Below, one piece after another: positions 23,270-47,853 of a stretch of DNA of 64,000 nucleotides; position 1 is the first letter of the stretch; each line of letters starts with the position of its first letter. Origin of the DNA: Bacteroidales bacterium. Its GTDB lineage: Bacteria > Bacteroidota > Bacteroidia > Bacteroidales > Bacteroidaceae. The position numbers and the translations under genes were made by a program. Under the pieces are notes generated by a model. That model was not told where the DNA came from. It worked only from the letters and a program-made list of their open reading frames with translations, and searched no databases. The stretch lies in the NCBI GenBank assembly GCA_015654535.1, contig JAATGU010000039.1, positions 1 through 64,000 of the forward strand. Direction: 5' to 3'.

Positions 23270-23289
23270 TAGAATTAGAATTTAATGTA

Positions 23290-23891: not shown

Positions 23892-23892
23892 G

Positions 23893-27045: not shown

Positions 27046-27057
27046 GGTATGGGATAT

Positions 27058-27236: not shown

Positions 27237-27331
27237 GATACTCCTTCACAAAGTTCATCCCTAACAACAATTAAGTTCACCTTGGTTTCATAACTTTTTA
27301 TCGATACTCCTTCACAAAGTTCATCCCTAAC
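27237..27331. repeat. pair of 29-bp direct repeats, 66-bp period
   Basis: The same 29 bases occur at 27237-27265 and 27303-27331, beginning GATACTCCTTC and ending CATCCCTAAC. The copies are identical and the 37 bp between them are unrelated. This is repeat-spacer-repeat geometry but with only two copies and no cas genes. It lies at the right end of the mobile element, in the 340-bp gap 27046-27385. Confidence 0.85.
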
Positions 27332-27385
27332 CCTATTGGATAAAATCGTTGAACTTTATGAGGATAAAATGTTCTGTATGAAAGG

Positions 27386-27508
27386 ATGCTAAAAGAAAAA
27401 AAAGAGGCAATCTCTCTGCTACATGAGGTACTAACAAAGCTTCGGATTTATCTTCAACAATCTCAACAATATGAAGAAGTCTTTATTCGTATCGAATTTG
27501 TACCATAA
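27386..27508 (+). CDS. possible 40-residue small protein
   Basis: An open frame coding for MLKEKKEAISLLHEVLTKLR followed by IYLQQSQQYEEVFIRIEFVP, mostly a charged amphipathic helix with a beta-like tail. An AAAGGA sequence ends at the start codon, too close for a proper ribosome site. Its stop codon overlaps the proposed right attachment core (27496-27507), so if the core is right, the frame is created at the junction or belongs to the element end. A strong terminator about 95 bp downstream suggests some transcript passes here. Could be non-coding. Confidence 0.25.
   Translation: MLKEKKEAISLLHEVLTKLRIYLQQSQQYEEVFIRIEFVP
27496..27507. repeat. candidate right attachment core
   Basis: ATTTGTACCATA, identical to 15851-15862, with GCTAAT 13 bases further on in both copies. 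Chance identity of 12 bp in such AT-rich DNA is possible, so this is a proposal. Confidence 0.5.
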
Positions 27509-27600
27509 ATGCATAACTAGCTAATATTCAGTATCAATTTCTTTTGAAGAAATTAAATAATATATAGACGCATTCATCTTCTAGGAGGTGAATTTAATTA

Positions 27601-27639
27601 AAAAGGCTGTTTCCGGTTATTCGGGAACAGCCTTTTTTT
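27601..27639 (+). terminator. strong rho-independent terminator
   Basis: GGCTGTTTCC (27605-27614) pairs with GGGAACAGCC (27623-27632), one wobble, followed by seven T. It faces right, but no proven gene lies just upstream; the 40-residue frame at 27386-27508 or an unseen RNA might use it. Confidence 0.8.
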
Positions 27640-27880
27640 GTTTGGATTATTATTTGTAAATATAGCAATAGATGCTTATATACCCTTTTTATAATGCTAA
27701 TAATGAGGAATGAAACTAAAATTAACACTATCCCGCTAAGAAAAAGAGAAAAACTTCAAGTTATATTCCGACAATACTTTTTACTTTTAGAGATATCACA
27801 CTGATAATAAGCTGCGGAAAAATTAGTTCACCCCCCTATAATAGCAGAATATATGATCTGTTTTTCCGCACATCCCCAGG

Positions 27881-27977
27881 GTCCATAGCTAACCCTAATA
27901 GCTATTTAACTCGATTCTGCAAGGCAGTCCCTTGCGATAGCCTGTAGTCCATAGCTAACCCTAATAGCTATTTAACT
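27881..27977. repeat. pair of 31-bp direct repeats, 66-bp period
   Basis: Identical 31-bp copies at 27881-27911 and 27947-27977, starting GTCCATAGCTAACCCTAATA. The 35 bp between them differ. Each copy contains a 7-bp inverted repeat (ATAGCTA ... TAGCTAT). The 66-bp period equals that of the repeat pair at 27237, and both repeats share a short related core (CTAACCCTA versus CCTAACCCTA beyond the second copy). Confidence 0.85.
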
Positions 27978-28047
27978 ATAGCTATGTGAAAATTACACTT
28001 TGTTATACTTTTATCGGTTTTTGGGCTGCTAAATAAAATAAAATTAG

Positions 28048-28055
28048 TAGCTTTG
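28048..28055 (+). promoter_or_regulatory. -7 promoter box of the GT9 gene
   Basis: TAGCTTTG matches TAnnTTTG, 57 bp before the start codon. A TTTG at 28020-28023 is 24 bp upstream, slightly too far for an ideal -33 box. Confidence 0.5.
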
Positions 28056-28112
28056 AAACAAAATGAAAAACGACAGTAAAAACTACAGATATAAATTTAA
28101 TAAGTTGAGAAT

Positions 28113-29162
28113 ATGGATATTTTAAGAAATATCAACATAGTAAAAAGAGTTATTTTAAAGGCTATAACTAAAAATATTGGCGTTTCTAAAAACAATCAAA
28201 ATGTTGGTCTATTAAATAAAACTGAGATTAAAAGAATTCTTATAACCAGACCTAATCATAGATTGGGAAATCAGTTATTAACGACTCCTATTGTTCAAGA
28301 AGTGATGGAGTTGTTTCCCAATTGTAAAATAGATTTGTTTGTAAAAGGAAATATAGCTCCAATTATATTTATTAATTATGAAAACGTTGATAAGATCATA
28401 CAGTTACCCAAAAAGCATTTTAAACAAATATTTCAATATCTTCAAGGGTGGTTGAGTATCAGAAAACGACATTATGATCTTGTAATAAACGTAGAGAAAA
28501 ACTCCTCATCAGGTAGACTTTCGACGAGGTTTGCTAATTCAAAATATAAATTTTATGGTGATGATGAAAATGATTTTCAACTTAAATATACTGATTTTCA
28601 GCATATGGCTAAATATCCGGTTTATAGTTTTCGTTATTATTTATCTAAGCTAGGAATTACTGGCAATGACAAAGAAATTCCATATTTAGATATCAAATTA
28701 AGCTCTTCTGAAATTGCAGAAGGGAAAACAATACTTCAAAATCTTATTGATAAAGAAAAAAAAACAATTTGTTTATTCACTTATGCAACTGGAGCAAAAT
28801 GCTATACGGAATTATGGTGGTTAGAATTCTATGAAAAATTAAAATCACAATATCCAAACTTTAATATTCTTGAAGTTTTACCAGTTGAGAACATTTCAAA
28901 AATATCATTTAAAGAACCAACATTTTATAGCAAAGACATTCGGGAAATTGGTGCAGTAATTGCAAATACCGATATTTTTATAGGTGCAGACAGTGGTATT
29001 ATGCACTTAACAAGTTCTGTGAAAATCCCTACTCTCGGACTATTTTCTGTTACTAGTCTAGATAAATATGCACCATACAATAATAAAAGTAAGGGCTTAG
29101 ATACTAACGAGCTAAATATTGATGAAATTATCAATGAAATAGATAAAATTCTTTTGGTATAA
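28113..29162 (+). CDS. glycosyltransferase family 9 (heptosyltransferase-like)
   Basis: A 349-residue GT-B fold protein like ADP-heptose:LPS heptosyltransferases. The N-terminal donor-side motif is KRILITRPNHRLGNQLLTTP (residues about 41-60). The C-terminal half has the conserved DIFIGADSGIMHLTSSVKIPTLGLFSVT near residues 290-315, where the sugar-nucleotide binds. It would add a heptose or related sugar to LPS/LOS core or another surface glycan, on the cytoplasmic face of the inner membrane. It stands alone between the mobile element end and a GH2 gene, with no other LPS genes nearby. The acceptor is unknown. Confidence 0.85.
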   Translation: MDILRNINIVKRVILKAITKNIGVSKNNQNVGLLNKTEIKRILITRPNHRLGNQLLTTPIVQEVMELFPNCKIDLFVKGNIAPIIFINYENVDKIIQLPKKHFKQIFQYLQGWLSIRKRHYDLVINVEKNSSSGRLSTRFANSKYKFYGDDENDFQLKYTDFQHMAKYPVYSFRYYLSKLGITGNDKEIPYLDIKLSSSEIAEGKTILQNLIDKEKKTICLFTYATGAKCYTELWWLEFYEKLKSQYPNFNILEVLPVENISKISFKEPTFYSKDIREIGAVIANTDIFIGADSGIMHLTSSVKIPTLGLFSVTSLDKYAPYNNKSKGLDTNELNIDEIINEIDKILLV

Positions 29163-29236
29163 ATAATATTTGCCAGGCACTCTTTATTTATAAAAAGAAT
29201 GAAAAACAGTGATAGATAATGGTTTAGTAATAACTT

Positions 29237-32644: not shown

Positions 32645-33133
32645 TCAATTCTGGGTGCAATTAATCTTCTGATTCTCGCAATATGAAACAAATCGAGCAA
32701 GCATGTCTGTCCATTGTTTCTGGTTAAATACGCAAGCAACTTTACGCTCTTTATCATATACAAGGGTATATTTAAATCCAAGTTGTTTTAGCGTTTTTAC
32801 TTGAATACCCGAAATATAAGTCAATACCTTATCTTCATTTTTATACTTTTCTGTAAATTCAACAACCTGAGTTAAAAATAGAGACATTTCTTTTGCATTT
32901 CCTTTAAAATATTCAACTTCATAAGCTCCTTTAACCCAGTCATCAAAGTAAAGTTGGTATCCCCATAAAGAAAAGGTGTCAACCTGAATATTATTATTGC
33001 TTTCAAGAACTTTCCAATGTGACAGATATGTATTTGAAATTTTGTTTGAAAATACAGTCTCAAGTTTATAGGTCTGTGAAAATAAGTTTGCAGAGATAAA
33101 GCAAACAATTGCAATTAAAATTATTTTTTTCAT
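32645..33133 (-). CDS. hypothetical secreted protein
   Basis: A 162-residue protein beginning MKKIILIAIVCFISANLFSQ, a clear signal peptide with cleavage near SANLFSQ, so it is exported. The mature part is rich in aromatic and charged residues (VLESNNNIQVDTFSLWGYQL, YISGIQVKTLKQLGFKY) and I do not recognise a domain. The open frame extends to 33196, but the first 21 residues before this Met are untypical. It lies downstream of the peptidase operon terminator at 33271-33306, so it is probably separately expressed. Nothing else indicates its role. Confidence 0.75.
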   Translation of the reverse strand: MKKIILIAIVCFISANLFSQTYKLETVFSNKISNTYLSHWKVLESNNNIQVDTFSLWGYQLYFDDWVKGAYEVEYFKGNAKEMSLFLTQVVEFTEKYKNEDKVLTYISGIQVKTLKQLGFKYTLVYDKERKVACVFNQKQWTDMLARFVSYCENQKINCTQN

Positions 33134-33270
33134 TATTTGAATTATATTTAAATTAAACAATATACAAATGTATATAAAGTTCAACAGAATAAACAACTAT
33201 TTTATCATGTATTTCAACAATATACAAAAAAATAAGTTAACCCAACTCATCTACATGCCCACAAAAAGAA

Positions 33271-33351: not shown

Positions 33352-35550
33352 TTATTTTAAGCGATTAATACTTTTAATGGCTTCATTCACAATTTCCTTA
33401 TCTTTATCTATTGATGATATTTTTTGCAATCCCTTTATTACCTCATTTTTACGGTAACTAAAGTTATACCATCCCAAAGCTTCAATGGTTGTTATCCTAA
33501 GATTTTTGTCTTGTGATGTATTTGATGCAAAAGAAAGTAAAGCATCTACAGCTACAGCATCCGGGTGATTACGATATGCAGATATAACAAAGCGTTTATC
33601 TTTCACTGTGCTGGTAGTATCCAGAATGGTGGCCAACTCTTTTTTCTCGCTTTCTTTGAAACGTTTTATGTTTTCCAGTAGTTTATCTATTTCACTACGA
33701 TTATATAATAGAGTATTGTTTGTTTGTTTTTTCACCTCTGCCTCTAGTTTATCTAAATTCATTGAGCCAAAGGCTTCGCTGATTTTGAAAGAGACACGAG
33801 GTGAAGTAACATCAGAAATAAAACTGTGAACAAATGCCGGAATCAACTCATCTGAACCATTCTTACCGAGATACTCCGCAGCAAAGCGGCGAACAAGTTC
33901 ATAGCTATCATCAATTGCGGCATTCAACACTTCAATAAAGTGATTGTCGTCTAACTTCCCTAATAAACGTAAAGCTTCTAAGCGAACAACTCCGCTTTGA
34001 GAAGAGAAATAGGTCTCTTTTAGTAAAGATGAAATGTCTTTATACTGATTGTCGTAAAGTTTTCTAAGAGCCATTGCCTGAACGTCTGCATTCGGGTAAT
34101 TAATCAATTTTTTCCAATAGGATACATCCTTGTTATGTAATGTCAATGCTTCATTGATATCAAACTTAACATTCGAGTGATTTGCAAAATGATATGTAGG
34201 ATCACCTATGATGTGTGTTTCAAGAAAATGAACATGTTTGTCCCATAAACCAACGCGTAATCCGGCATTAAGCAAACCTAAGAATTCATCCGGCCATTTA
34301 TCTTGAATTGTATTCACGGTATTACCTTGCGTTACCAATGTCTTTCCGTCATTGAAGATATAAGATCCTGCAATGTAATCTTTCTCATAGAAAGAGCCAT
34401 TGAAACATGCGTCGAACATTACAAAACGAGCATTGGGTGTAATCTTATGAATATCTGTAGTGTGGATGTCCAGATCTAAATTGTAAAGAGAGTCGGCTTC
34501 TATCTTTTTGGGATCAAATGCTTCTTCACACCACTCACGGGGAATACCTAAATATTTTACGTATTGTTGAATGGCCGCTTCTTTATCTTTACTTTTTTTG
34601 TAGGTGGATAATACTTTGTCACGGACATATAACTTTATATTTTCAATGGAATTTGTTGCGTCACTTACGTTTTTGTAACCATTCAAATATTGCGTATCTT
34701 CAGCGCCATGATGGTGAAACAACATAATATCCAGTTCCGGACGTTGAACCTCGGTAAGGTAGTACCCTTTAATAGGCCAACGTGATTCGAAATCCATGAA
34801 TTTTACACGGTTCCCGGCTTTGAAAAGTTCGGGAAACTGCTCATTTAATGCAAGTTGTTCGCCTGACCATGCATCGAGTGATTCCGAATTATATCCGTGT
34901 CCACGAGCCATTGTCAGATTATCAATCACGTTCTCCGGATTGGCGGTACGCTCTGCCACAACTTTATTAAGATACTTTTCCAGCATAAGGTATTTATCTT
35001 TTCCGGTAAGCTCTAATGGTTTGATACGAGCTGAATAGATATCGGAAGAAAGAACCTGATCGGATTCTGCTTTCAGAGAGAAATAATAATAAAGTGGTTT
35101 ATCGGCATCTTGTTTCAAGAACTTGAATTGCAAACCGAAGTCGTCATAATAACGATCACTTGGTATGCTTGATAATTTCCAGTCTCGTGCCTGATTCATT
35201 TTAAAAGCCGAGGAAAGATGTTGTGCATCACGAAGCATAGGAATGGGAATATCACCAACAAAGACCGTTCCTTCGAGTGGCGACTTTTTGTCAGCATGTA
35301 ATTTGATAAGTAAAGCACGGATATCTTCCGGCGATTTCCAGTTATCGGATATGATATAGGTTCCGAGCCCATCTTTTTCGATAACTTGTCGATAGGCTTC
35401 AATAGCCTTTTTTACTTTACTGTAACTTTGATTGTCAATAATGATGGCAAACGAAGTCTTGCTTTTTACAGAGGGTTGTATGATGGTTTGTGCGTCTAAT
35501 ATTAAGCATGACTGCACTAACAACATAAACAGAAATAGTTTTTTTATCAT
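33352..35550 (-). CDS. clan CD (C25-like) cysteine peptidase with HEAT repeats, paralogue 1
   Basis: A 732-residue exported protein (signal peptide LFLFMLLVQSCLILDAQ). The N-terminal half resembles the C25/gingipain domain: VFVGDIPIPMLRDAQH and PSDRYYDDF are conserved in all three tandem copies. The clan CD dyad is seen as His281 in FHHHGAED and Cys382 in FDACFNG. The C-terminal 250 residues are helical HEAT-like repeats (EALRLLGKL, RFAAEYLGKNGS, ITTIEALGWYNF), a probable protein-interaction surface. It is the last gene of the sigma-FecR-receptor operon. Substrate unknown; no T9SS-type sorting domain is seen. Confidence 0.85.
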   Translation of the reverse strand: MIKKLFLFMLLVQSCLILDAQTIIQPSVKSKTSFAIIIDNQSYSKVKKAIEAYRQVIEKDGLGTYIISDNWKSPEDIRALLIKLHADKKSPLEGTVFVGDIPIPMLRDAQHLSSAFKMNQARDWKLSSIPSDRYYDDFGLQFKFLKQDADKPLYYYFSLKAESDQVLSSDIYSARIKPLELTGKDKYLMLEKYLNKVVAERTANPENVIDNLTMARGHGYNSESLDAWSGEQLALNEQFPELFKAGNRVKFMDFESRWPIKGYYLTEVQRPELDIMLFHHHGAEDTQYLNGYKNVSDATNSIENIKLYVRDKVLSTYKKSKDKEAAIQQYVKYLGIPREWCEEAFDPKKIEADSLYNLDLDIHTTDIHKITPNARFVMFDACFNGSFYEKDYIAGSYIFNDGKTLVTQGNTVNTIQDKWPDEFLGLLNAGLRVGLWDKHVHFLETHIIGDPTYHFANHSNVKFDINEALTLHNKDVSYWKKLINYPNADVQAMALRKLYDNQYKDISSLLKETYFSSQSGVVRLEALRLLGKLDDNHFIEVLNAAIDDSYELVRRFAAEYLGKNGSDELIPAFVHSFISDVTSPRVSFKISEAFGSMNLDKLEAEVKKQTNNTLLYNRSEIDKLLENIKRFKESEKKELATILDTTSTVKDKRFVISAYRNHPDAVAVDALLSFASNTSQDKNLRITTIEALGWYNFSYRKNEVIKGLQKISSIDKDKEIVNEAIKSINRLK

Positions 35551-35560
35551 AATATACTTG

Positions 35561-37762
35561 TTATTTTAATCGGTTTATTGTTTGTATTAACTCTTTACGA
35601 AATTCTTGTGGAACGTTACCTGCAGCAATAAGTTTGTTGCAGGTTTCAATTATTTCTCCTTTACGACATGAATAGTTAAACCAGCCTAAAGCTTCTGCCA
35701 AAGTTACTTTTACTGTTATATTTTCTTTGTCATCAGAAAGTAACTTGAGATAATCATCCAGCAGGAAATGATAGTTATTGTTTCGTATCAAACGTATCTC
35801 GCTTATTCGTTTCTGAATATCTGCATTGGGATTCATTATAATACTAAGTCCTTTTTTCTGTTGCTTTGAATTTTGTGTAAAGTCTGCTGAAATTTCTTTC
35901 AACACCTTTTCCTTATCAAGCAAATTTGAATTTTCAATTGCTTCCTGAATAGATTTCAATACATCTTCTAAAGGATATATTTCGAAAGAATTTTTAAGGC
36001 TATAAGCAACTCTTTGTTTTTCACTCTGATTAATATATATATTAGCCATAGGTTTTAATAAATTCTTTGCCCCGATGCGTCCGGCATAACTAGCTGCCTG
36101 GCGGACAACCAATTCGTAGGGATCATCTAATCCTATGGCTACAGCCTGTGTAAAATCGGCATTCGCATAGCGGCTTAACAGTTTGAGGGCTTCCATGCGA
36201 ACTGTATTAAACTTAGATTCTTTGAACGTTTCTAACAGGAATGAAGAAAGACTCTTTTGTTTATCGTTATCGGCCAGCATTCTTAGAGACAGCGACTGGA
36301 TATCGGCATAATCTGATTTAAGATAATGCTTCCAGGTTATTTCATCATTACTTTTTAAAATCATATCAGAAGCAATATCTCCGGCAATTGCCGAAGCAAA
36401 ATGAACAGTTGGATCACCAAAGAGGTGGCCTTCAAGAGTTGCAATTAAGCGGTTATACTGTCCGGCTCTTACACCGTAAGAAAGAAGTCCTATCATTTCT
36501 ATAGTCCAACGATCCTGAAGAACATTTCTACTATTCCCCTGTACCACTAGTGTATTTCCACCATTGAACAAATAGTAACCGGCAACATAATCATTTAAAT
36601 GAAATGAACCATTATAGCAGGCATCAAGCATCACAAATTTAGGATAGGTATTCAAATGACTAAGATCGGAAAGATTAATGTATATATCGGCATTACGAAT
36701 AGAATCTTTTCGTATTTGTGCTTTAGAATACAATGAATCAAAAAAACTATTTTGCAGTCCATACGTCTTTGCATAATAGTTTTTCAGGGAATCGAGCGTA
36801 ATCTTACCATTTGATATAGATTTTCGGGCATCAACAAATATATCCGAACGAACATTGTCATAGCGGCTATCAAATGAAGAACCTGGAACCTCATTGTTTA
36901 TTAATTGTTTCTCGGGCAATCCATGTTCATGGAACATAAATAAGTCTACTTCCGGCCTTTGAAGTTGGTTAAATAGTTTATACTTCATAAAATCATCCAT
37001 TCGGAAGTTCAGTTGACGTGCATTAAGATTACTTTTCCATGCAAGCGGAAAGTTTTCGCGATAAGCCTTCATTTCATCTGCCCATGCAATAAGACATTCT
37101 GAGTTGTATCCACTACCGGTGAAAGATACAAAGTTATCCATCTTATTGTTTTTCTCCTTTTTAGAATCAGCTGCTTTGTTCAGAAATGCAGCGATGGCTT
37201 CATACTTATCTCCTCCTTTTTTCTCCGGGTACTTAATGCGTGCCGAATAAAAATCCGGATGTAAATCTTGTGGAGAAGTTTCGCTCAACTTATAATAGAA
37301 ATGTTGAGGCTGAGTGGTATCTTGTGAGATATACTCAAATGACAAATGGAGATCATCATAAAACCGGTCACTTGGAACAGATGAGTCAGGAAACGGGAAC
37401 TTCACTTCATCCATTTTAAAGGCTGTTGTGAGATGTTGGGCATTACGGATTAATGCAACGGGTATATCTCCTATAAACACAACACCTTCTAATGTTGGTT
37501 CATCTTTATAGAGAGCCTTTAACTCATTTCTTATTTGCTCAGGGTTCTTCCAGTCGGCACTATAGATATAAGTTGAAAGTCCGTCGTTTTCTACTGCATC
37601 ACGATATTTATAAATAGCACCTTTTGTTTTCTCAAAGGTTTTGCTGTCAGTAAATATTGCAAAAACAGTAGCTCCCTTTTTCAAGGGTTTCTCTTTTACT
37701 ATCTGCGCTTCTACAGAAGTTACCAGAAAGAAGAGTGATATCAATATAACTAATTTTCTCAT
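35561..37762 (-). CDS. clan CD (C25-like) cysteine peptidase with HEAT repeats, paralogue 2
   Basis: A 733-residue paralogue of its two neighbours, exported (signal peptide up to VTSVEAQ). It shares VFIGDIPVALIRNAQH and VPSDRFYDDL and has the catalytic dyad His280 (MFHEHGLPE) and Cys382 (MLDACYNG). The long insert between them differs from the other copies in length and sequence, suggesting a different specificity pocket. Helical HEAT-like repeats occupy the C-terminal third (MEALKLLSRY, RQAASYAGRIGA, EALGWFNYSC). It is separated from paralogue 3 by 7 bp and from paralogue 1 by 10 bp, so they are co-expressed. Confidence 0.85.
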   Translation of the reverse strand: MRKLVILISLFFLVTSVEAQIVKEKPLKKGATVFAIFTDSKTFEKTKGAIYKYRDAVENDGLSTYIYSADWKNPEQIRNELKALYKDEPTLEGVVFIGDIPVALIRNAQHLTTAFKMDEVKFPFPDSSVPSDRFYDDLHLSFEYISQDTTQPQHFYYKLSETSPQDLHPDFYSARIKYPEKKGGDKYEAIAAFLNKAADSKKEKNNKMDNFVSFTGSGYNSECLIAWADEMKAYRENFPLAWKSNLNARQLNFRMDDFMKYKLFNQLQRPEVDLFMFHEHGLPEKQLINNEVPGSSFDSRYDNVRSDIFVDARKSISNGKITLDSLKNYYAKTYGLQNSFFDSLYSKAQIRKDSIRNADIYINLSDLSHLNTYPKFVMLDACYNGSFHLNDYVAGYYLFNGGNTLVVQGNSRNVLQDRWTIEMIGLLSYGVRAGQYNRLIATLEGHLFGDPTVHFASAIAGDIASDMILKSNDEITWKHYLKSDYADIQSLSLRMLADNDKQKSLSSFLLETFKESKFNTVRMEALKLLSRYANADFTQAVAIGLDDPYELVVRQAASYAGRIGAKNLLKPMANIYINQSEKQRVAYSLKNSFEIYPLEDVLKSIQEAIENSNLLDKEKVLKEISADFTQNSKQQKKGLSIIMNPNADIQKRISEIRLIRNNNYHFLLDDYLKLLSDDKENITVKVTLAEALGWFNYSCRKGEIIETCNKLIAAGNVPQEFRKELIQTINRLK

Positions 37763-37769
37763 AGTATTT

Positions 37770-39968
37770 TTAATTCATTAATCGGTTATATGTACGCAAA
37801 GCCTCTTTTTTCAATATTTTTGGTGTAGAGGAGTCTTTAATTAAATCTTTGCAAGCATCTATTATTAATCCTTTATTATAAGAAAGAGAAAACCAAGACA
37901 GTGCGTCTAACATAGCTGTGCGAATTTTAATATTCTCAGAACTATCTTTTAATAGAGACACATATAGACTAATACCAGGATGATAATTAATATTCTTCAG
38001 CACGCTGATATAGAATAAGCGGTTAGATTCTTTTGCTTTTTTATCTGCCACTACCTGGTTTAATTCCTTAATAAGTGAGCTGCTTGATAAAGAAAGCAGG
38101 TTCTTCATCTCTTGCCCTTTGTTAATATAGTATGATTGATTAAAACATGAATCGGCTATACGTTTTACATCCGCTTCCGGATAAAGACGCAACGCCATCT
38201 TTACATTAAAAACAACTCTCTCTGAATGGTCATCGTTAATATATAATTTAATGATAAATGGCAGAAACTCCGGAAGGCCAATGCTTCCCATTCTAGTAAC
38301 TGCTATGCGACGAATAAACTCATAACTATCTGAAGACCCTTGTTTCAGAACTTCGTAGAAGTTATTATCGTTAATTTTTTCGAGCAAATGCATACAGCTA
38401 TATCTTACCGTGGCAAAAGGCGAACTTTCAAAAGTTTTCAGTAAAAGAGCTGAAATACCTTTATAATTGTTCCGATACAAATTATACAATGCAAGATTCT
38501 GGATATCAGCCAATGATGAGGTATGCAACAGTTTTAGTTGTTCTGCCTCATTATAGTTCTTATTAATTAATTGAGCAGCATCAATAGACGATGAATTTGA
38601 GGTGAAACGAAATGTAGGGTCACCTATAATATGAGATTCAAGGATGTTTGTGTATCGGGCCCATTGTCCTATACGCGCTCCCAATCCTAATAATCCCAAA
38701 AGATCATCAGCCGATTTATCTTGCAATACATTTACCGAGTTAGCAAAAGTGGATACACATTTGCCATCAGAGAAAATATATCTTCCTGCTATGTAGTCAT
38801 CTTCACGAAAGTCTCCATTATAACAAGCATCAAATATAACAAAACGAACGTTAGGTACTGCTTTTGTTATATCACCTAATACAATGCCCCGGTGAATATC
38901 AGTGAGCGAATCTTTCTCAATCATTTTAGGATTGTTATAACCTTTAAACCAAACAGAGTCAAGATGATATTTCGTTTCATATTCTGTATATAGTTTTGAA
39001 GGGCTTTTCCCGTTTTTTATACTTAGTCTTTGTCTGTCTCTCAAAGCAGCTTTCATTGAGGCTATGTGATCATCGAATTCATTAGTATTAGCCTCAGCAG
39101 AAATGTATTGTCTTTCGGGCATTCCGTGTTCATGAAAAATCATAAGATCAAGATCATTTCTTCTAATTTGATTAAGTAACTCTTCTTTTGGAAAATCATT
39201 CATGCTGTAGCGAAGAAAACGTGCGCATCCTTGTTCTTCAAACACACCAGGAAATTGCTCGGAAATATTAAATATTTCGGGCGTCCATGCTGATAGAGAA
39301 TTTGAAAAAGAACCTTCACCCGAATAAGAAACGAACTGATTGAGCTTATTCTCAGACCGATGTTCTTTTACCACCTTTCTAAGGTATTTTTTTATCTGTT
39401 CATATTTATCTACTCCGTTATTGATTGGCTTTATACGACCAGAATAGAGTTCGCACTGAATCCTTTGTGGAGAATCTGCCGATAAATTATAGTAGAAGAA
39501 CTGATTCTTAGCACTATCATGACTAATATAATCAAATTTCAAGTGAAGATCGTCGTAGAAACGATCGGAAGGAACAGATGATTCTATTCTTGGTTTTGAC
39601 TCATCCATCTTGAAAGCAGATGTCATGTGTTGCGCTTTTTGCACCATTGCTATTGGAATATCACCAATAAAAACCATTCCTTCGAGCTTTTTCTTCTTAT
39701 AGAGTTCTACAATTTCCTTTTTTACATGTTCCGGATTTTTCCAATCTCCGTAAAATATAAAGGTTGGGAGATGTGAATCTTCTAGCACTTTTTTATATTC
39801 TTCTATTTCTTTTCGGCACTGATTGAAAGTGCCTTTATCTACAAAGATAGCAAACGAAGAATTACTGATGGAAATGGAGGGGCTAACCCTTTTCTGTGCA
39901 TAAACAGAACCAGCCAGCAACGCCATTCCAATAATACATAATCTGATTTTTTTTAATTGCATAAGCAT
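37770..39968 (-). CDS. clan CD (C25-like) cysteine peptidase with HEAT repeats, paralogue 3
   Basis: A 732-residue exported protein (signal peptide through GSVYAQ). The dyad is His281 (IFHEHGMPE) and Cys382 (IFDACYNG), and MVFIGDIPIAMVQKAQH and SVPSDRFYDDL match the other two copies. The C-terminal region again carries HEAT-like helices (YSCMHLLEKI, RRIAVTRMGSIGL, DALSWFSLSY). Its ATG shares one base with the preceding gene's stop, so translation is coupled to the barrel protein. All three copies keep the complete dyad, which argues that each is active rather than a relic. Confidence 0.85.
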   Translation of the reverse strand: MLMQLKKIRLCIIGMALLAGSVYAQKRVSPSISISNSSFAIFVDKGTFNQCRKEIEEYKKVLEDSHLPTFIFYGDWKNPEHVKKEIVELYKKKKLEGMVFIGDIPIAMVQKAQHMTSAFKMDESKPRIESSVPSDRFYDDLHLKFDYISHDSAKNQFFYYNLSADSPQRIQCELYSGRIKPINNGVDKYEQIKKYLRKVVKEHRSENKLNQFVSYSGEGSFSNSLSAWTPEIFNISEQFPGVFEEQGCARFLRYSMNDFPKEELLNQIRRNDLDLMIFHEHGMPERQYISAEANTNEFDDHIASMKAALRDRQRLSIKNGKSPSKLYTEYETKYHLDSVWFKGYNNPKMIEKDSLTDIHRGIVLGDITKAVPNVRFVIFDACYNGDFREDDYIAGRYIFSDGKCVSTFANSVNVLQDKSADDLLGLLGLGARIGQWARYTNILESHIIGDPTFRFTSNSSSIDAAQLINKNYNEAEQLKLLHTSSLADIQNLALYNLYRNNYKGISALLLKTFESSPFATVRYSCMHLLEKINDNNFYEVLKQGSSDSYEFIRRIAVTRMGSIGLPEFLPFIIKLYINDDHSERVVFNVKMALRLYPEADVKRIADSCFNQSYYINKGQEMKNLLSLSSSSLIKELNQVVADKKAKESNRLFYISVLKNINYHPGISLYVSLLKDSSENIKIRTAMLDALSWFSLSYNKGLIIDACKDLIKDSSTPKILKKEALRTYNRLMN

Positions 39969-41530
39969 TAAAAGTTTAGTCCGATGCTAAATTCAGCACG
40001 TGTGCGATTACTGAAATCAAAATCGCTCGTTTTACTATAACTGAAATTGAATTTAGCAAAAACATTTGCATTTGTTATCTCATTATATCTCTGTGAATAT
40101 ACAGCCGAACAGTTTACTGTGTAGTAATCTGAAATCAGATAATTTAAATCGGTTTGTTCAAAATACTTCACAACAGAATAATCGGAATGCTGACCGTTAT
40201 AATTGTATTCACCAGACAGGTTCTTGTTATATGCAACACCAGCACCTACAAGTAAACGCTTAGTCAGTTTATCTGAGAGAACAAAATTCTTTTTTCCTCC
40301 TAAGCTGAATGCTATATTCTCTGCATTTTTAACTGAATATGGAAGTATATAAGTATCATTCTTCTTTTCATAATTAACGCCTGCATCTACACGCCAGTTA
40401 TATTCCTCGTCACGATTGGCCATTAATGTATAGAGGGCTTTTGCTGTTTTAGTTTTGTAAGTAGAGCGAATGCTTTTATAAAGAGATTGCCATCCTTCTG
40501 TATTATCGTATTTAGTAACGTATTGAATGCCATCAATAGAGCGATCCTGATAGTCCAGTTTCAAATAATGGGTATACTCTTTACCGTTTGTATATAACGT
40601 AAGGTTTGTATTCCATATCTGGTCTTTGGTAGAAGAATCGTCACGAGGAGTAGAAAATGAAATTTCCACATCCTCAACTTTAGCAGAGTAGTTAGCACCA
40701 AAAAGCAGATTGATTGCACCGCGATAGTTATACTGTAATCCTCCACCTATCTCATTCCCAACATAGTTTGTGGTTCGTCCTGACCCTAAGCCTTTTACAG
40801 CTGTTCCTAATCCATAAAGCTCATAATAAACAGGATCTACGTTTCTATTCTCTTGAGACATTTCTGATTCCTCTTTTAAGCTAGCATACTTCAAATTTAA
40901 GCCTATATTATGTTTATCATTAGGAGAGTAAACAATGCCGGGTTTCAACTCTAAAGTGTAGAAATAGTTTTCGGTACGCGGATCTCGTTGCTTAGCTCCA
41001 AGGTATGCTTTGTAGCTTCCTTCTAGGCCTAATGAAATTACATTTCGTAGTTTAGGAGTAGCAACACGAAACTGTAAATCGTATCTCTGATTACTCCAGT
41101 TGGCAGGAAGCGAATCGGCAACGTAATAAGGCATTCCTCTAAACGGATCAATAATGGATGAATTATAAGTTACATCCTTTTTTTCATCACGAGAATATTT
41201 AAAACGTCCCCATACATATGCTTTTTTCAGTTTTATAGATCCTTCTGTATCTATAAAAATACTACTTCCTTTTGCTTCTTCCTGAGGACGGTGAAAGCTT
41301 CCATTTACTAACTTGTATCCAGCGTTCAATTCTGAAAACTGAACCGGATTATCAATCAGTGAACCAGCTGCATTTGTTGATTGCTGCCACAAACTTCCTA
41401 ACTTGTAGCTTTCGTAAGCAGCGGGAGTACTCAAAACGTTGTTTTCCTGAGCTCTTAATACAGGAGATATCATTAGTAGAAGCAACACATATTGTGCAAA
41501 TATTATAATAGGTTTAATATATTTTCTCAT
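39968..41530 (-). CDS. outer-membrane beta-barrel protein (DUF6850-like)
   Basis: A 520-residue exported protein (signal peptide YVLLLLMISPVLRAQ). The mature part is a succession of amphipathic beta strands with many aromatic girdle residues and ends in a strand finishing NF (ISIGLNF-like terminal Phe), as outer-membrane barrels do. It matches the family annotated as DUF6850 outer-membrane beta-barrel proteins, by recollection. It sits between the surface lipoprotein and the peptidase array in one operon. A transport channel or an anchor for the peptidases are both possible. No catalytic motif. Confidence 0.75.
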   Translation of the reverse strand: MRKYIKPIIIFAQYVLLLLMISPVLRAQENNVLSTPAAYESYKLGSLWQQSTNAAGSLIDNPVQFSELNAGYKLVNGSFHRPQEEAKGSSIFIDTEGSIKLKKAYVWGRFKYSRDEKKDVTYNSSIIDPFRGMPYYVADSLPANWSNQRYDLQFRVATPKLRNVISLGLEGSYKAYLGAKQRDPRTENYFYTLELKPGIVYSPNDKHNIGLNLKYASLKEESEMSQENRNVDPVYYELYGLGTAVKGLGSGRTTNYVGNEIGGGLQYNYRGAINLLFGANYSAKVEDVEISFSTPRDDSSTKDQIWNTNLTLYTNGKEYTHYLKLDYQDRSIDGIQYVTKYDNTEGWQSLYKSIRSTYKTKTAKALYTLMANRDEEYNWRVDAGVNYEKKNDTYILPYSVKNAENIAFSLGGKKNFVLSDKLTKRLLVGAGVAYNKNLSGEYNYNGQHSDYSVVKYFEQTDLNYLISDYYTVNCSAVYSQRYNEITNANVFAKFNFSYSKTSDFDFSNRTRAEFSIGLNF

Positions 41531-41561
41531 CTGATTTGGTTTTAAATATTAAATATACATC

Positions 41562-42818
41562 TTAATTGTTGCTTTTGAGAGTATGATTCCATGAAGGCAT
41601 CTTTGAACCATAACGACGAAACATTGGAACTACTCCACGTTCAAAATCATCGGTACTGTTATTTGTATCCATTAAGATTGGTGTACCATCTTCATTTTCC
41701 CCGATTTTTTGACGTGCAACACCCAAAGAATTATAGGTTGCACCTACATATGTCATTCCGGCATCAAGAACACTTGGTACACGTTTAGCCGCAATCATGG
41801 TTTCATTCTGTCCACATTCAACTCCATCAAGCACATATTTTATAGGAACCTTTGCATAAAGAGTAGTAGATGTTCCTGAAAGATCTCTTGTGCTGAGACT
41901 GGTATTGTTTACCGGATCCCATGCTTCTCCTGTGGGTACTTTGAAAATTATGTATGCGCCTCCGAAAACAGATGTTAAATATTGAGGGACAGAGCCCAAG
42001 GCACTTTTCCCATTATAGAACACATGAGTCATATCTACAGCTGGCTGATCTGGAAAGTTTTTGTTGTTCATATTAAATTCGAATTCAGAAGATGAACAGT
42101 CAACCGGTGAATTAGGGTTGTATTGAGGCAGTTTATGATTTGCAGCAAACTGTGATATTACAACAGATTCTCCCGGTTTTACAGGATAGTCCGTTCCGTT
42201 TCCAGGAAACTTCCATACACGTTCAGCATATGCGTAATTAGCTCCATCCCCATCCGGCCATTTAGGCAATTTAGTTGTAGCTGTTGATGGGGTAAGATTG
42301 GCAAAATAGATGCCATCCAGATAAATAGTGTTTGACGAGTTATTATATATTTCATAGAACTGGTTACGGAAATAGCTAGTGGCTGTTCCGGCGTAAAATA
42401 TTTCAGAGAATATTAGCGGACTGATTTTTAATCCATTTATAGAAACATCTAGAGTTTCTCCTTCTTTAGTGATTGCATAATTAATTTTGCTTCCATTTAC
42501 ATAATATTCATCACCCGAAGAGGATGTTACTTTTCCTGTAATGTTTATGCTATATATTCCAGGTAATAAGCCCTCAACCAATGTAGTTGATTTTCCTAGA
42601 ACTTTTTCCATGTGGATATTTTCATTATAATTATCAAACTTCACTTTCAGTCCTTCACTGGAATTAACCCCCTCTATAGACATTATAGCATTTACATTTA
42701 CACTGAGTGGCGCAATTTCTTTTGTATCAAAAGCATCGCTGAAAGAATCGCAAGACGCATTTACAAACAGCAGTAATATTAAAGCTAATAGTATATTTAT
42801 TTTCTTCATAAGTTTCAT
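41562..42818 (-). CDS. DUF4876-like surface lipoprotein
   Basis: A 418-residue lipoprotein, with signal sequence KKINILLALILLLFVNASCD and Cys23 as lipidation site. The N-terminal third has a beta-sandwich look (SVNVNAIMSIEGVNS, LVEGLLPGIYSINITG), and the rest contains a lamin-tail-like segment (LIFSEIFYAGTATSYFRNQFYEIYNNSSNTIYLDGIYFA). This resembles DUF4876 proteins that accompany TonB receptors, probably acting as a surface-exposed binding partner of the receptor just upstream (15 bp gap). Ligand unknown. A start at the second Met (42809) is also possible. Confidence 0.78.
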   Translation of the reverse strand: MKLMKKINILLALILLLFVNASCDSFSDAFDTKEIAPLSVNVNAIMSIEGVNSSEGLKVKFDNYNENIHMEKVLGKSTTLVEGLLPGIYSINITGKVTSSSGDEYYVNGSKINYAITKEGETLDVSINGLKISPLIFSEIFYAGTATSYFRNQFYEIYNNSSNTIYLDGIYFANLTPSTATTKLPKWPDGDGANYAYAERVWKFPGNGTDYPVKPGESVVISQFAANHKLPQYNPNSPVDCSSSEFEFNMNNKNFPDQPAVDMTHVFYNGKSALGSVPQYLTSVFGGAYIIFKVPTGEAWDPVNNTSLSTRDLSGTSTTLYAKVPIKYVLDGVECGQNETMIAAKRVPSVLDAGMTYVGATYNSLGVARQKIGENEDGTPILMDTNNSTDDFERGVVPMFRRYGSKMPSWNHTLKSNN

Positions 42819-42832
42819 GCATTAAGTATTTG

Positions 42833-45800
42833 TTACAGTTTTAAAGAAAGTTCTAATCCAAAGAAGAACTGATTATTGCGAACTTTAAATGTAGTTTCAC
42901 GTTTTGATTTTTGTATAGGATAACTTCTGAACATGTTGTTTGCAAAGAATGATACACGTAGAAAATCACCAATCTCTTTGGTTACATTAATATTGAAACA
43001 GAAGAGGGGATTATAAGACTCTTTAATATAATATTTATCATCCCTTTGTCTTAACAAATTAGTATATTCAGATGCTGATATTGGATCTTCTTTAAAATCA
43101 TGCATTACCCCATCAACTTTTGATATATATTTAATAGGAATTGTGTCATTACCGAATTTATACCAATTGGATTCTTTCCAAATAGTCTGAGCGGTTAATG
43201 TAACGACAAACCCAATACTTGGTATATTATGTGTTGCCCTCAAAGTTGTAGAAAGTCGTTCATTATAGGACTTACTCATCCCTTTTTCATAAACACCAAT
43301 ATGTGTTCTGTCTGAACCGCCTGTTCCGCTATAGCCATCAAAGTAAGTGTAATCGTTATTATAACTCTCGCTTTGGATCCAGGCTCCATTCAATGTAAAG
43401 GCAGTACGAATAGCATCAAAACGTCCCAGATTCAAGTCAAACTCTAATCCTTTGGTATTTAATGTACGGTTGTTACTTGGCGTATAGTAACATGCTAAAA
43501 CCGGATTACTTTGAGACAAAGTAAAGGTTGACGCATTAGCAGAAGAACGTATATATTCATTAAATGTTACAGGTGAATACTGGGCTTCCATTCCATAACC
43601 ATTATTCATTCTTTCTGTGAAAGCAGTTATTCCAAACTTTGACTTACCTAACTTAAAATCCAGTCCCAATTCGGCTTTCTTATTCTTTGTTACTTTTAAA
43701 TCTTTATTTTCAGTGTTGAATATACGGGTTGTTGTCATATATACACGTTGATCTTCAGGAATATCCCCATTAGCCATTTCGTTGATATTCACATATTCAA
43801 AATAGGCATTCTCTGGATGAAGATATAATGAAGTAGGAGCTTTGGCTGTAATACCATAACCACCTCTAATAGTTAGCTTATCAGGTAAAATATCAAAAGA
43901 AGCATTAATACGTGGAGTAATCACATCTTTAACGCTTGAAATTTTATCATAACGCACTCCAGCCTGAATATTTAAGTATCTGCTACCCAATGCATAGCTA
44001 AAATTTTCTTCTGCAAAAAATCCCAATTGCTTTACATAAGGAATATCCTTATAACTGCGTGGACGGAACGAAGCATTTATAGCTGACAGATTACGATAAG
44101 GAGGAGCTGTGTTATTAAACGTTTTTCCGTTACCTTCATTTCCATCAACCTTAAGATCAGCTCCAAGCATAATTTTATTATTCAGATTCCCTATTTTTTT
44201 GAAAAAATTAGTAGTTAGCTTACCAAATACATTGATTTCTTTTCCATCAATATCATGGTGTGCAAAGTATGAATTAGCAAGATAGATTGCATAGTTATTT
44301 GCATCTGCGCCACTAAAATTGGTAAGTTTATTACCTAGATTATCATAAATATCCTTTCCTGCAGTGTTCGACAGAATAGCACCATCGGTAGTTGTCATTG
44401 AATAGGGGGCTGTTGCATTTGTATATTGTTCCTCATAATAACTCTTTTTAGAGGTATAACTTGCAGAGGCTACATATTTTATTTCTTTCAACCATCCTTT
44501 ATTTATATTGTATGAACCATTTGTATTTAAAGTTATGCCTAAATCTTTTCCTTGTGAAGCAATTTTTGAAGATGCATCATCAGGATTCAGATCACGTTGA
44601 TTGTTTCCGTATAAGAAATCTAGAGATGTATTACTTCTCAATTTATTATTAAAAAACACATTAGAATATAAAACTTTTGCTGTTGCACGTTTATAATAAA
44701 GATATGATCTAACTGGATTAGTTACGTTGTGAGCATAATCTCCACTTATATTCAATGCTCCCTTATTTTTACCTAGCTCAAAACCTGTACCAATAGAAAA
44801 CTCGTAGACATTGGGATTTGTTTTTGCATTGACACGCAAAGGTTCTCTTCCAGCTTTAGAATTCAGAATAACGGCTCCCGAAGTAAGGTCACCATACTGA
44901 ACGGAAGGTATACCACGAATTACTTCAATTGATTCTATATTATCAACAGAAATTCCACGTATATCAAAACCTCCCGATGGAGAAGATGTACCACCTAATG
45001 AAGCTGTAGCTCCAGCAACAGAAGGGTTCATTGTTTGTAAGTTTGCATTATTAGAAATAGGTGCACCATCTCGTATAATAACAGCACCTAGTCCGTTCAT
45101 ATTTTTATCTGCAGCATTTGCGGAAACTGAACGAATATTAATCTGAGAGGCTTCACTTAATGTTTGATTACTGGTCACTCCACCCGGAAGTAAAGACAAA
45201 ACATCATTTAAGCTGGTAGCCTGTAAGTGGTCCATTGCCGTTCTTGATATTTTGGAAGCAGTAGATTGCCCTGCCTTGCTATTCTCTGCTGTTACAACAA
45301 TTTCTTGTATTCTGAAGTTTTCTTCTTTCAGATTAAAGTTCAGATTCAAATTACGATTAACATTAATCAATGTGTCTACACTAATTTTCCCTAAAAACGA
45401 GATATTTAATCTGATCTTTCCTGAAGGTACATTCTCTAAGGAAAAATCTCCGGTTGCACTGCTCAACGTACTCATTGCATAATCAGTGATTGATACGGTT
45501 GCAAAAGGGAGTATAGTACTTTTTCCTTTACTTGCTTCCTCATAGATTGTGCCAGAGACTTTAAATTTACTGCGTTGTGTGCTCTTCGTCACACTTATCA
45601 TTTCTGCAGAGTTCTGTTTTATCATTTTATTATTTGTTCCAGGGGGAGAAATAAGAATACAATCTTGTGTTATTTCATACCGAAGGGGAGTTTGCCGGCA
45701 GAGTTCATCGAGGATATTAGTTAGCGATGCATTTTTAAACACAAGCGTCACATGTTGGCTTGGACTAATTGTAGCTTCTTCATACACAAAGTGAACCTGA

Positions 45801-45985
45801 GCCTTTGCTTGTAATTTTTCTAACGCTTCTCTTATTAGAATGTTTTTAACTTTTATAGATATTCTTTTGTCCATCTGGATAGTAGTAAAACTACATAATG
45901 TTAAAAAGAATAGTCCAATTGTTATAAAATATCTAATCTGATTAATTTTACGCCGGAAAATTTGTTTTAATTTTTCTTTTCTCAT
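42833..45985 (-). CDS. TonB-dependent receptor with STN signalling domain
   Basis: A 1050-residue outer-membrane receptor. After the signal region comes an STN domain (about residues 40-110, IREALEKLQAKAQVHFVYEE), then a carboxypeptidase-regulatory-like domain (about 145-230), a plug (about 240-370, with GAVIIRDGAPIS and IESIEVIRGIPSVQYG) and a large barrel ending FFFGLELSLKL. The STN domain marks a receptor that signals to a FecR/ECF pair, whose genes lie immediately upstream in the same direction. It should transport a bound substrate with energy from TonB, and report its presence. It is FecA-like in class, not SusC-like, and no SusD gene is present. Confidence 0.93.
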   Translation of the reverse strand: MRKEKLKQIFRRKINQIRYFITIGLFFLTLCSFTTIQMDKRISIKVKNILIREALEKLQAKAQVHFVYEEATISPSQHVTLVFKNASLTNILDELCRQTPLRYEITQDCILISPPGTNNKMIKQNSAEMISVTKSTQRSKFKVSGTIYEEASKGKSTILPFATVSITDYAMSTLSSATGDFSLENVPSGKIRLNISFLGKISVDTLINVNRNLNLNFNLKEENFRIQEIVVTAENSKAGQSTASKISRTAMDHLQATSLNDVLSLLPGGVTSNQTLSEASQINIRSVSANAADKNMNGLGAVIIRDGAPISNNANLQTMNPSVAGATASLGGTSSPSGGFDIRGISVDNIESIEVIRGIPSVQYGDLTSGAVILNSKAGREPLRVNAKTNPNVYEFSIGTGFELGKNKGALNISGDYAHNVTNPVRSYLYYKRATAKVLYSNVFFNNKLRSNTSLDFLYGNNQRDLNPDDASSKIASQGKDLGITLNTNGSYNINKGWLKEIKYVASASYTSKKSYYEEQYTNATAPYSMTTTDGAILSNTAGKDIYDNLGNKLTNFSGADANNYAIYLANSYFAHHDIDGKEINVFGKLTTNFFKKIGNLNNKIMLGADLKVDGNEGNGKTFNNTAPPYRNLSAINASFRPRSYKDIPYVKQLGFFAEENFSYALGSRYLNIQAGVRYDKISSVKDVITPRINASFDILPDKLTIRGGYGITAKAPTSLYLHPENAYFEYVNINEMANGDIPEDQRVYMTTTRIFNTENKDLKVTKNKKAELGLDFKLGKSKFGITAFTERMNNGYGMEAQYSPVTFNEYIRSSANASTFTLSQSNPVLACYYTPSNNRTLNTKGLEFDLNLGRFDAIRTAFTLNGAWIQSESYNNDYTYFDGYSGTGGSDRTHIGVYEKGMSKSYNERLSTTLRATHNIPSIGFVVTLTAQTIWKESNWYKFGNDTIPIKYISKVDGVMHDFKEDPISASEYTNLLRQRDDKYYIKESYNPLFCFNINVTKEIGDFLRVSFFANNMFRSYPIQKSKRETTFKVRNNQFFFGLELSLKL

Positions 45986-46045
45986 ATTTTTGTTTGATTA
46001 AATAGTTTAACAGACCCATTCACAGGTACTTTGAATTATTTATAT

Positions 46046-46073
46046 CAGCGGAAAGGGTGAGGCCTTTCCGCTG
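46046..46073 (-). terminator. hairpin between FecR and receptor genes, possible attenuator
   Basis: CAGCGGAAAGG (46046-46056) pairs perfectly with CCTTTCCGCTG (46063-46073) around a 6-base loop. It lies in the 93-bp gap between the FecR stop and the receptor start. On the minus strand the following sequence is only moderately U-rich, so partial termination, giving less receptor than sigma/FecR transcript, is one reading. Confidence 0.6.
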
Positions 46074-46078
46074 TTTCT

Positions 46079-47182
46079 TTATTCTTTCATATTTTCTATT
46101 CTAATTTGTTGCCTATCTCTAATGAATCTTACATTAGAGACTTTTTCAAGAATATCTGTTGCAAAAGATAACGGCTCATTTCGGAAAATGACACCAGTAA
46201 AACTTTTTTGTTTCAAATATTCTTGCTCAAAAGAAAAATCTACGTTATACCATCTTGATAGTTGATTGATGATACTGGACAATTCTGTATTTCTGAACTC
46301 ATAGATACCTGTTGTCCATGAAGTATAGAATTTTGCTTCCACATCTTTTATCTTTAGATTTTCTTCAGAATTCATAATAACCTGTTGATTCGGCGATAAA
46401 AAGACTTCTTCTTTTTCATTATAAACTCTCACTTTTCCTTCTGCTAAAGTGACATGAAACTTATCGTTCATATATGCAGATACGTTAAAATGGGTCCCCA
46501 AAACTTCAATAGAACCTTTGTTGGTATGGACAATAAAAGGATGAGCAGCATCTTTGGCAACCTCAAAGTAAGCTTCTCCGATAAGCTCTACTTCTCGTTT
46601 CCCGGAAAAATTCTCTGGAAAACGCAGTTGACTATCTGCGTTAATCCAGATACTTGTACCGTCAGCCAATGTCAAGGTATATTCTCCGCCACGAGGTACA
46701 GACAATGTATTATATTGTATTATTCCTTTAAATGCTTTTCGAACATAAATTAGTTGCTTTTTTGCATCATTATGAATAAATGTTATTCCTTTGCCATCGG
46801 ATATTTCGCCTTGGCAAACAGAAAGATCAACTATTTTTCCGTTGGATAGAGTTAATGTAGCCTTCCGGCTTCCCATTTCGTTAAATTTTTTTTGAGTAGT
46901 TAAAGCCAATAAATTAGAGTTGGAAATATTCTGTTCAAAGAAAAATAAACCTCCAATCAGTAATAGCGAAGCTGCTACCGAAGTTATCCGATATATAACA
47001 CGGCGTGTTTGTATTCTTTCTTTTCTTTTTTGGAGTTTATTCCAAGCTTCATGAAGATTGCATTGTTTTAGAAATTCAAGTGAACGCTTTGTACGATAAT
47101 AATGGAAGTACGTTTTTGTAACTTTTTGACGGCTCTCCGATTGACTACGCCATAGATCAAATTCGTTCTTTAGTTTTTCCAT
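46079..47182 (-). CDS. FecR-family anti-sigma factor
   Basis: A 367-residue protein with a cytoplasmic N-terminal portion of about 80 residues (sigma-binding), one membrane helix near residues 78-95 (ITSVAASLLLIGGLFFF), and a periplasmic FecR domain (NTLSVPRGGEYTLTLADGTS, ELIGEAYFEVAKDAAHPFIV). A C-terminal STN-interacting tail ends in RFIRDRQQIRIENMKE. It relays the receptor's signal to the ECF sigma factor by regulated proteolysis. The start ATG at 47182 (MEKLKNEFDLW) is preferred over 47242. It lies 89 bp downstream of the sigma gene and 93 bp upstream of the receptor gene. Confidence 0.93.
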   Translation of the reverse strand: MEKLKNEFDLWRSQSESRQKVTKTYFHYYRTKRSLEFLKQCNLHEAWNKLQKRKERIQTRRVIYRITSVAASLLLIGGLFFFEQNISNSNLLALTTQKKFNEMGSRKATLTLSNGKIVDLSVCQGEISDGKGITFIHNDAKKQLIYVRKAFKGIIQYNTLSVPRGGEYTLTLADGTSIWINADSQLRFPENFSGKREVELIGEAYFEVAKDAAHPFIVHTNKGSIEVLGTHFNVSAYMNDKFHVTLAEGKVRVYNEKEEVFLSPNQQVIMNSEENLKIKDVEAKFYTSWTTGIYEFRNTELSSIINQLSRWYNVDFSFEQEYLKQKSFTGVIFRNEPLSFATDILEKVSNVRFIRDRQQIRIENMKE

Positions 47183-47271
47183 ATCTGCTTTTTTGTTATA
47201 ATGAGATAGGAAAATAGATAAATGGGTGACATAAAGAGGCAAATAATGTATTTTTAGGTTCTTTTTTTATT

Positions 47272-47853
47272 TTAATAGAAAAAAAGATATAGGGAATGAC
47301 TTTTGCGTAACTTTTTTAATGCTCTGGAAAGATGAGTTTTAAGTGTATTGACAGAAATGTCAAATTCTTCTGCTGCTTCTTTATATTTTTTATTTTCAAG
47401 GAGAATAGCTTTTACTACACGGAGTTCCTGCGAAGGTAACTTTTCCAATTCCTCCATTATTCTTTTTTTTCTCTCGCATAATTCTTCTTCATCGTAGACT
47501 TCATCTTCAATATCTATATCACAATTTACAAGTTCATCTATCGGTATTCGTCCTTCTTTTTTTATGGCAAGGATAGAGGCATTTCTTACAGATAAATAAA
47601 GGTAATTGCGCAAATTTATATTGATTTTTTTATCTATTTTTTTTTCCCAGAAGTAAATGAAGAAGTCCTGTACAATATCTTCGGCCATTTCAAACGAATC
47701 GGTAAGTTCTACGGAATAGATGCAGAGGCGGATATAATAAGACTCAAATAACAGGCGAAATGCTTTTTCTCGGTCACTTTTAAACAGCTCAAGCAATCTG
47801 ATATCTTTTTCATTATTATTCCCTATATTCATAGATCTTTTTTCTAAGTACAT
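47272..47853 (-). CDS. FecI-like ECF sigma factor
   Basis: A 193-residue ECF sigma factor (or 186 from ATG 47832, MNIGNNNEK). Region 2 is EMAEDIVQDFFIYFWEKK; region 4 is LPSQELRVVKAILLENKKYK with an HTH (EAAEEFDISVNTLKTHLSRA). It is the first gene of the downstream block of FecR, TonB receptor, lipoprotein, barrel protein and three peptidases, all on the minus strand. It should transcribe that block once the FecR protein is cleaved on receptor occupancy. Confidence 0.93.
   Translation of the reverse strand: MYLEKRSMNIGNNNEKDIRLLELFKSDREKAFRLLFESYYIRLCIYSVELTDSFEMAEDIVQDFFIYFWEKKIDKKININLRNYLYLSVRNASILAIKKEGRIPIDELVNCDIDIEDEVYDEEELCERKKRIMEELEKLPSQELRVVKAILLENKKYKEAAEEFDISVNTLKTHLSRALKKLRKSHSLYLFFY

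Follow-up and report, generated by a model that had tools for sequence, protein, structure and literature searches.

What is the task of an operon in which a TonB-dependent receptor is followed by three adjacent, exported HEAT-repeat proteins? The question is raised by a Bacteroidales genome (GCA_015654535.1, contig JAATGU010000039.1), of which a stretch of 64,000 nucleotides, here called the window, was analysed. The explanation that we find best, and to which we would give an even chance, is a TonB import system with peptidases of its own, which would free iron or haem from a captured protein or peptide in the manner of the Fus system but with other parts.

Gene content of the operon and predicted fold of its peptidases

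Eight open reading frames lie on the minus strand at 33352..47853, with successive intergenic gaps of 29, 93, 14, 31, -1, 7 and 10 bp. A sequence-only reading had proposed an eight-gene, one-strand operon here, and both this layout (largest gap 93 bp) and the gene families that it named (sigma factor, FecR, STN-bearing receptor, DUF4876, DUF6850 and HEAT) were borne out, the latter by Pfam and NCBIfam. The features, from the first gene on, are as follows.

47272..47853, minus strand: ECF sigma factor, 193 aa, first operon gene (Pfam sigma-70 regions 2 and 4; Sigma70_r4_2 3e-13)
46079..47242, minus strand: FecR-type anti-sigma factor (Pfam FecR 2e-19, FecR_C 8e-17)
42833..45985, minus strand: TonB-dependent receptor with STN domain, 1050 aa (Pfam STN, CarbopepD_reg_2, Plug)
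41562..42818, minus strand: DUF4876 lipoprotein (probable), orthologue of BT_1938, PDB 4q1z (Pfam DUF4876 E 7e-53)
39968..41530, minus strand: DUF6850 protein (Pfam DUF6850 E 2e-112)
37770..39968, minus strand: predicted gingipain-fold HEAT peptidase, slot 1 (HEAT_2 above curated cut-off)
35561..37762, minus strand: predicted gingipain-fold HEAT peptidase, slot 2, the modelled copy (HEAT_2 26.0 versus cut-off 27.7 bits)
33352..35550, minus strand: predicted gingipain-fold HEAT peptidase, slot 3 (HEAT_2 above curated cut-off)

In NCBIfam, the sigma factor scored above the cut-off of TIGR02937 and below that of TIGR02985 (2e-32). The TTG start of the FecR frame is probably too early, an ATG 20 codons further in (~47182) being the likelier start. 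The receptor exceeds the STN cut-off by 0.3 bit (28.7 versus 28.4 bits), and a phmmer search of it against PDB chains, FusA included, gave no sequence match at E ≤ 0.01. The DUF4876 protein is 60% identical to BT_1938; its Cys23, invariant across 22 aligned sequences, is probably the lipid-attachment residue of a lipoprotein. The DUF6850 protein is called a barrel here after one annotated homologous record, which names it an outer-membrane beta-barrel. Neither a SusD-family protein nor a type IX C-terminal sorting domain was found among the eight proteins (Pfam and NCBIfam, E ≤ 1), in agreement with the earlier reading, and the operon differs from a SusCD polysaccharide locus in having no SusD partner.

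The three peptidase genes are the only copies in this genome (E ≤ 0.001), and no relative was found on viral contigs. A 183-residue frame 155 bp past the operon end (32645-33196), exported as judged by eye, had no relative among the open reading frames of the related loci compared, and is therefore not counted as part of the unit. Downstream of the operon, the same strand encodes a member of glycoside hydrolase family 2 that also has an F5/8 domain (29237-32209).

On the evidence of the structural model, the paralogues are divergent C25-fold, HEAT-bearing predicted peptidases fixed in a TonB import operon. The predicted slot 2 structure contains the gingipain catalytic fold, with His280 just after the strand 274-278 and Cys382 at the end of the strand 376-383. 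The match to a gingipain came in a second look with VIA-align only; the 50 Foldseek matches listed for the model were helical-repeat proteins, with no gingipain among them. Across 206 copies in 81 loci, the His and the following Gly are invariant (206/206 each), and the Cys and the Ala are retained in 205 and 202 copies, respectively. Both motifs were found in each of the window's three paralogues, as had been claimed, and the profile searches did not assign them to a non-peptidase family without the dyad. PF01364 gave no match to the three window copies at E ≤ 1. The C25 link came through a homologue of 650 aa, with 32% identity to one of them, which scored 35.7 against a PF01364 cut-off of 23; together with the slot 2 model it supports the earlier proposal of a gingipain-like clan CD domain joined to HEAT repeats. 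A profile–profile comparison of the catalytic domain with the 24 PF01364 matches of the family sample was weak (Prob 33%, E 5e-4), with the Cys and a GDP motif aligned. Three compact copies that lack the insertion between His and Cys fail PF01364 (none, none and 21.7 versus 23), as does one further copy (20.6 versus 23). When the PDB was searched by sequence, with either the first paralogue or a profile as query, most hits were artificial HEAT proteins and no gingipain was among them. Elsewhere in the genome, a C25 protein, probably PorU, is encoded by a 1269-aa frame.

Compared with the gingipains RgpB and Kgp (C25, clan CD), most of the copies described here have ~100 residues between His and Cys, with a helical insertion, and carry a HEAT domain after the catalytic domain; the sorting tail is missing, the window copies do not match PF01364, and the genes sit inside a TonB-receptor operon. 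The HEAT solenoid may provide a grip on the substrate. The literature searched contained nothing joining HEAT repeats with a C25 gingipain in Bacteroides.

Conservation, age and apparent spread of the gene set

A protein search found 1925 relatives among the 7995 candidates with most words in common, and a scan of GTDB species genomes gave 328 encoding stretches; the 80 with the best peptidase match were analysed. The order receptor–DUF4876–DUF6850–peptidase, assigned by profile annotation, is complete in 72 of these best 80 of 328. A contig edge falls inside the unit in seven others (L016, L047, L066-L069 and L077), and in L079 the stretch breaks off in a mere gene fragment behind DUF6850, while an extra peptidase copy lies a few kb before the receptor. 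Since the 80 loci had been selected by their peptidase match, samples drawn independently of the peptidase were added. Among 247 genomes of the phylum, the peptidase is present in 6 (own genome included), each with a DUF4876 gene within ~10 kb, and DUF4876 in 22. Among 151 genomes of the family, it is present in 16 (own included), beside DUF6850 in 15 and at a contig end in the last, while DUF6850 exceeds its cut-off in 40. This comparison of gene order supports the earlier idea that receptor and peptidases form one unit; peptidases away from the receptor occurred in no unbroken locus examined. We describe it as a conserved gut-bacterial gene set of an outer-membrane importer and one to four HEAT-bearing predicted peptidases of modelled gingipain fold. 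Two records, titled Paenibacillus (L010) and Spirochaetia (L066), carry the Bacteroidota operon or part of it and are probably mis-binned contigs.

The 80 loci carry three peptidase copies in 46 cases, two in 30, one in 3 and four in 1. Each of 199 catalytic domains, 20 of them from copies upstream of the receptor, was given a label for its position and placed in a FastTree phylogeny, on which the five labels require 7 changes; the least possible is 4, and 200 shuffles gave a mean of 95 and none as low. This tree carries only local support values, and several of its branches have a long-branch flag. The few label changes indicate that slots 1, 2 and 3 and the receptor-upstream copy are largely old, position-fixed orthologous groups and not local triplications. 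Accordingly, the three tandem paralogues of the sequence-only reading stand as three adjacent copies, while a recent tandem triplication was dropped because the tree groups copies by position. Single-copy versions also occur in the family sample (G267, G299, G335 and G353), so the system does not depend on having several specialised copies.

One form of the operon, the BT_1938 type, is 99.94-99.97% identical over 12-16 kb across loci labelled Bacteroides bouchesdurhonensis, B. xylanisolvens, Phocaeicola faecicola and Butyricimonas sp. (L013, L015, L017 and L018), with integrases and transposases near its copies. The DUF4876 protein of L013 is identical to BT_1938 over 399 residues, and the L013 operon is contained at 100% in the B. 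finegoldii record NZ_OY725920.1. By sequence identity this form appears to be a cassette spreading recently across genera and, by label, families, single loci being possibly mis-binned or mislabelled. In L017 (B. xylanisolvens XB1A, 1558-4915) the receptor is split into two overlapping frames, by a frameshift or a sequencing error. The B. finegoldii record is called a plasmid, a location that was dropped for its copy: the record holds era, der, clpX and mutL, chromosomal housekeeping genes which make it look like a chromosome piece. No near match of the window's own operon was found on plasmids, and the 15 kb preceding the B. finegoldii copy have no annotated sigma factor or FecR.

The same integrase-bearing B. 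finegoldii island carries a YncE/TonB receptor/ABC cluster (19432-29994), which resembles B12 locus 2 of B. thetaiotaomicron. With the operon beside this B12-like cluster, the target may be a protein that binds corrinoids; in this version the cargo protein would bind vitamin B12 or be of some other non-iron kind, and the iron regulation of the system would be incidental. BT_1938 is moreover close in gene number to BT1954, which is BtuG2 (PMC6143338). We consider such a cargo quite improbable, given that three DUF4876 loci are iron-induced (PMC10434189; fold changes below) and that the scanned neighbours of the window operon are a glycoside hydrolase and an unknown, not of B12 type.

Regulation, proposed uptake route and site of digestion

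In the window, the ECF sigma factor, FecR and the STN receptor all exceed their cut-offs, so that the gene set for cell-surface signalling is present. The related stretches extend only ~2 kb upstream of the receptor, where a peptidase copy sits in 21 of them. Among the 46 testable loci (≥1.2 kb visible upstream and no upstream peptidase copy), a FecR-type gene is present in at least 5, a lower bound, and directly precedes the receptor in 4; a sixth FecR locus, L057, has the gene downstream. In the genus sample, FecR precedes the receptor in L147, itself preceded by a FUR-family gene, and none was found in L149. Ten other receptors, including four that adjoin FecR, were scanned for STN without a single hit, and the scan hence cannot tell signalling from non-signalling receptors. 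Because FecR directly precedes the receptor in only 4 of the 46 loci, the sigma/FecR pair is best read, from gene order, as a regulatory add-on and not as a defining part of the unit. The earlier inference of FecI/FecR induction fits the genes of the window, but such signalling does not define the system at large. Proteolysis of FecR by the operon's peptidases was also dropped, since FecR was mostly not seen at related loci.

The ligand, which had been left open, can be narrowed, as orthologous and sister loci are reported to be induced by iron starvation. In the table of PMC10434189, iron depletion raises BT1933-39 (HEAT, DUF4876, receptor) 3.5-7.4-fold, BT3625-33 (ABC, PepSY, DUF4876, receptor) 38-128-fold and PG1019-22 (DUF4876, receptor) 21-215-fold; the BT1933-39 response is modest compared with the other two, and its row also includes an IS256 transposase. 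PG1019-22 is reported to be haemin-responsive as well (PMC10470040). The FUR-family gene that precedes L147 likewise speaks for a link with iron. BT1933-39 of B. thetaiotaomicron is orthologous to the window operon by content, with a HEAT protein, a receptor and the DUF4876 protein noted above, but belongs to the operon type that is near-identical in several genera. P. gingivalis PG1019-22 shares DUF4876 and the TonB receptor, but its table row names no HEAT protein and leaves two 'hypothetical proteins' undescribed (PMC10434189).

On this basis we hypothesize that the DUF4876 lipoprotein and the receptor capture an iron- or haem-carrying protein or peptide, that the receptor, aided by the DUF6850 barrel, carries the whole or a segment of this ligand through the outer membrane, and that the exported gingipain-fold HEAT peptidases cut the imported, intact or partly unfolded polypeptide and free the metal. 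In the window's genome, the sigma/FecR pair would sense receptor occupancy through STN, making induction ligand-dependent.

The nearest parallel is Fus (FusA–FusC, YddB–PqqL), in which a TonB receptor and an exported protease also share an iron-responsive cluster: FusA takes up ferredoxin, which the periplasmic M16 protease FusC cuts (PMC6793856, PMC6071955). Some Fus-type clusters have other proteases (PMC6793856). Fus is described from Proteobacteria with an M16 enzyme (PMC6793856), whereas a C25-fold peptidase, DUF4876 and DUF6850 are found here in Bacteroidota; the window operon has no M16 of the FusC kind, and an M16 protein, assigned at the level of the family, occurs at 13 of 34 sister loci. 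The main text of PMC6793856 does not mention Bacteroidetes, C25, gingipain or S46. In the literature searched, DUF6850 was absent and neither a C25-family peptidase in a Bacteroidetes TonB-dependent operon nor BT1938 on a conjugative element was found; BT1938, BT1939 and DUF4876 are absent from PMC13142918 and PMC10100974.

Where would the peptidases act? Judged by eye, their signal peptide is a plain one; a sorting tail is missing, and a lipobox is rare: its pattern matches 3 of the 206 copies, one match (L079) being credible by eye and the other two judged false. With these features, periplasmic digestion after uptake, as in Fus, would fit better than surface digestion before it. The earlier suggestion that the peptidases process substrate for import thus keeps its link between peptidase and importer, and its surface cutting before uptake fits less well. 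That version, in which peptidases that are released, carried in vesicles or anchored on the cell surface as lipoproteins first break down proteins of the host or the diet and leave only a small product (haem or an iron-peptide, for instance) for the receptor to import, draws on the facts that gingipains themselves act outside the cell and that the DUF4876 protein is probably a lipoprotein. The main counter-sign to a periplasmic site is found at L151 and L153, where each of the eight HEAT peptidases has a lipobox-like Cys close to its start and, by sequence, looks lipid-anchored; a gene with a weak papain-family match follows them. The missing type IX tail, the rarity of the lipobox and the presence at sister loci of M16 and S46 enzymes, FusC being a periplasmic M16 (PMC6071955), weigh the other way, and we regard surface digestion as rather unlikely.

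Interchange of peptidases at sister loci

Import followed by periplasmic digestion is also consistent with loci that have the core without the HEAT peptidase. The window's genome contains one (L088, C123, 2870-13395), with the order receptor–DUF4876–DUF6850–S46–M16 and short gaps. With L114-L146, it makes up a set of 34 such DUF6850 loci, which derive from relatives of one family and are hence not 34 independent events. Receptor and DUF4876 are both present in 29 (exceptions L129, L133, L134, L136 and L143). An M16 protein of 934-980 aa is encoded in 13 of the 34 and an S46 protein in 4, together 16 loci, in the same gene run; three M16 and four S46 proteins were confirmed by Pfam and the rest assigned by BLAST. 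M16 genes occur at about seven places in the 4.1 Mb of the window's genome. In 12 loci, disjoint from these 16, DUF4857/ABC/PepSY genes lie in the stretch, and 6 have neither set. Among peptidase-bearing loci, L150-L153 have a further gene with a papain-family match, above cut-off in L150 only.

As M16 recurs beside the core, with S46 or C25-HEAT in its place, these findings suggest that different enzymes do one job, the dismantling of an imported polypeptide. Of the 135 family genomes (of 151) without the peptidases, 24 have DUF6850 over cut-off, which means that not every ligand calls for the peptidases. The same counts bear on a non-nutritional role, in which the peptidases mature or recycle the system's own parts or clear the receptor of bound proteins. 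The fixed gene order and old slots suggest dedicated partners, as such a role would have it, but the core stands without peptidases in many genomes and elsewhere with unrelated peptidase families, which would be odd for a step on a common component; we judge it improbable.

The import reading may be extended, tentatively and at somewhat less than an even chance, to a Bacteroidota protein-import family. A receptor–DUF4876–DUF6850 core would be combined either with exported peptidases of exchangeable type (C25-HEAT, M16, S46 and perhaps papain-like) or with an ABC/PepSY/DUF4857 set. One to four C25-fold enzymes, anciently specialised where there are several, would act on protein drawn in through the outer membrane while the HEAT solenoid grips the unfolding substrate; one cassette form would spread between gut genera, and the parts would be unrelated to those of Fus. 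If this is true, TonB-receptor import of whole or partly unfolded proteins, shown in the papers cited for Proteobacteria only (PMC6793856, PMC6071955), extends to a dominant gut and oral phylum, and gingipain-type enzymes are importer partners and not only secreted cutters. It would also explain iron-induced genes of B. thetaiotaomicron and P. gingivalis that lack an assigned function and give one to DUF6850 and to DUF4876, for which a structure is solved and the records examined state no function.

Two sister loci show a further arrangement beside the DUF4876/DUF6850 core: the S46 peptidase is fused to a DUF4953 met-zincin domain in L126 and adjoins one in L138.
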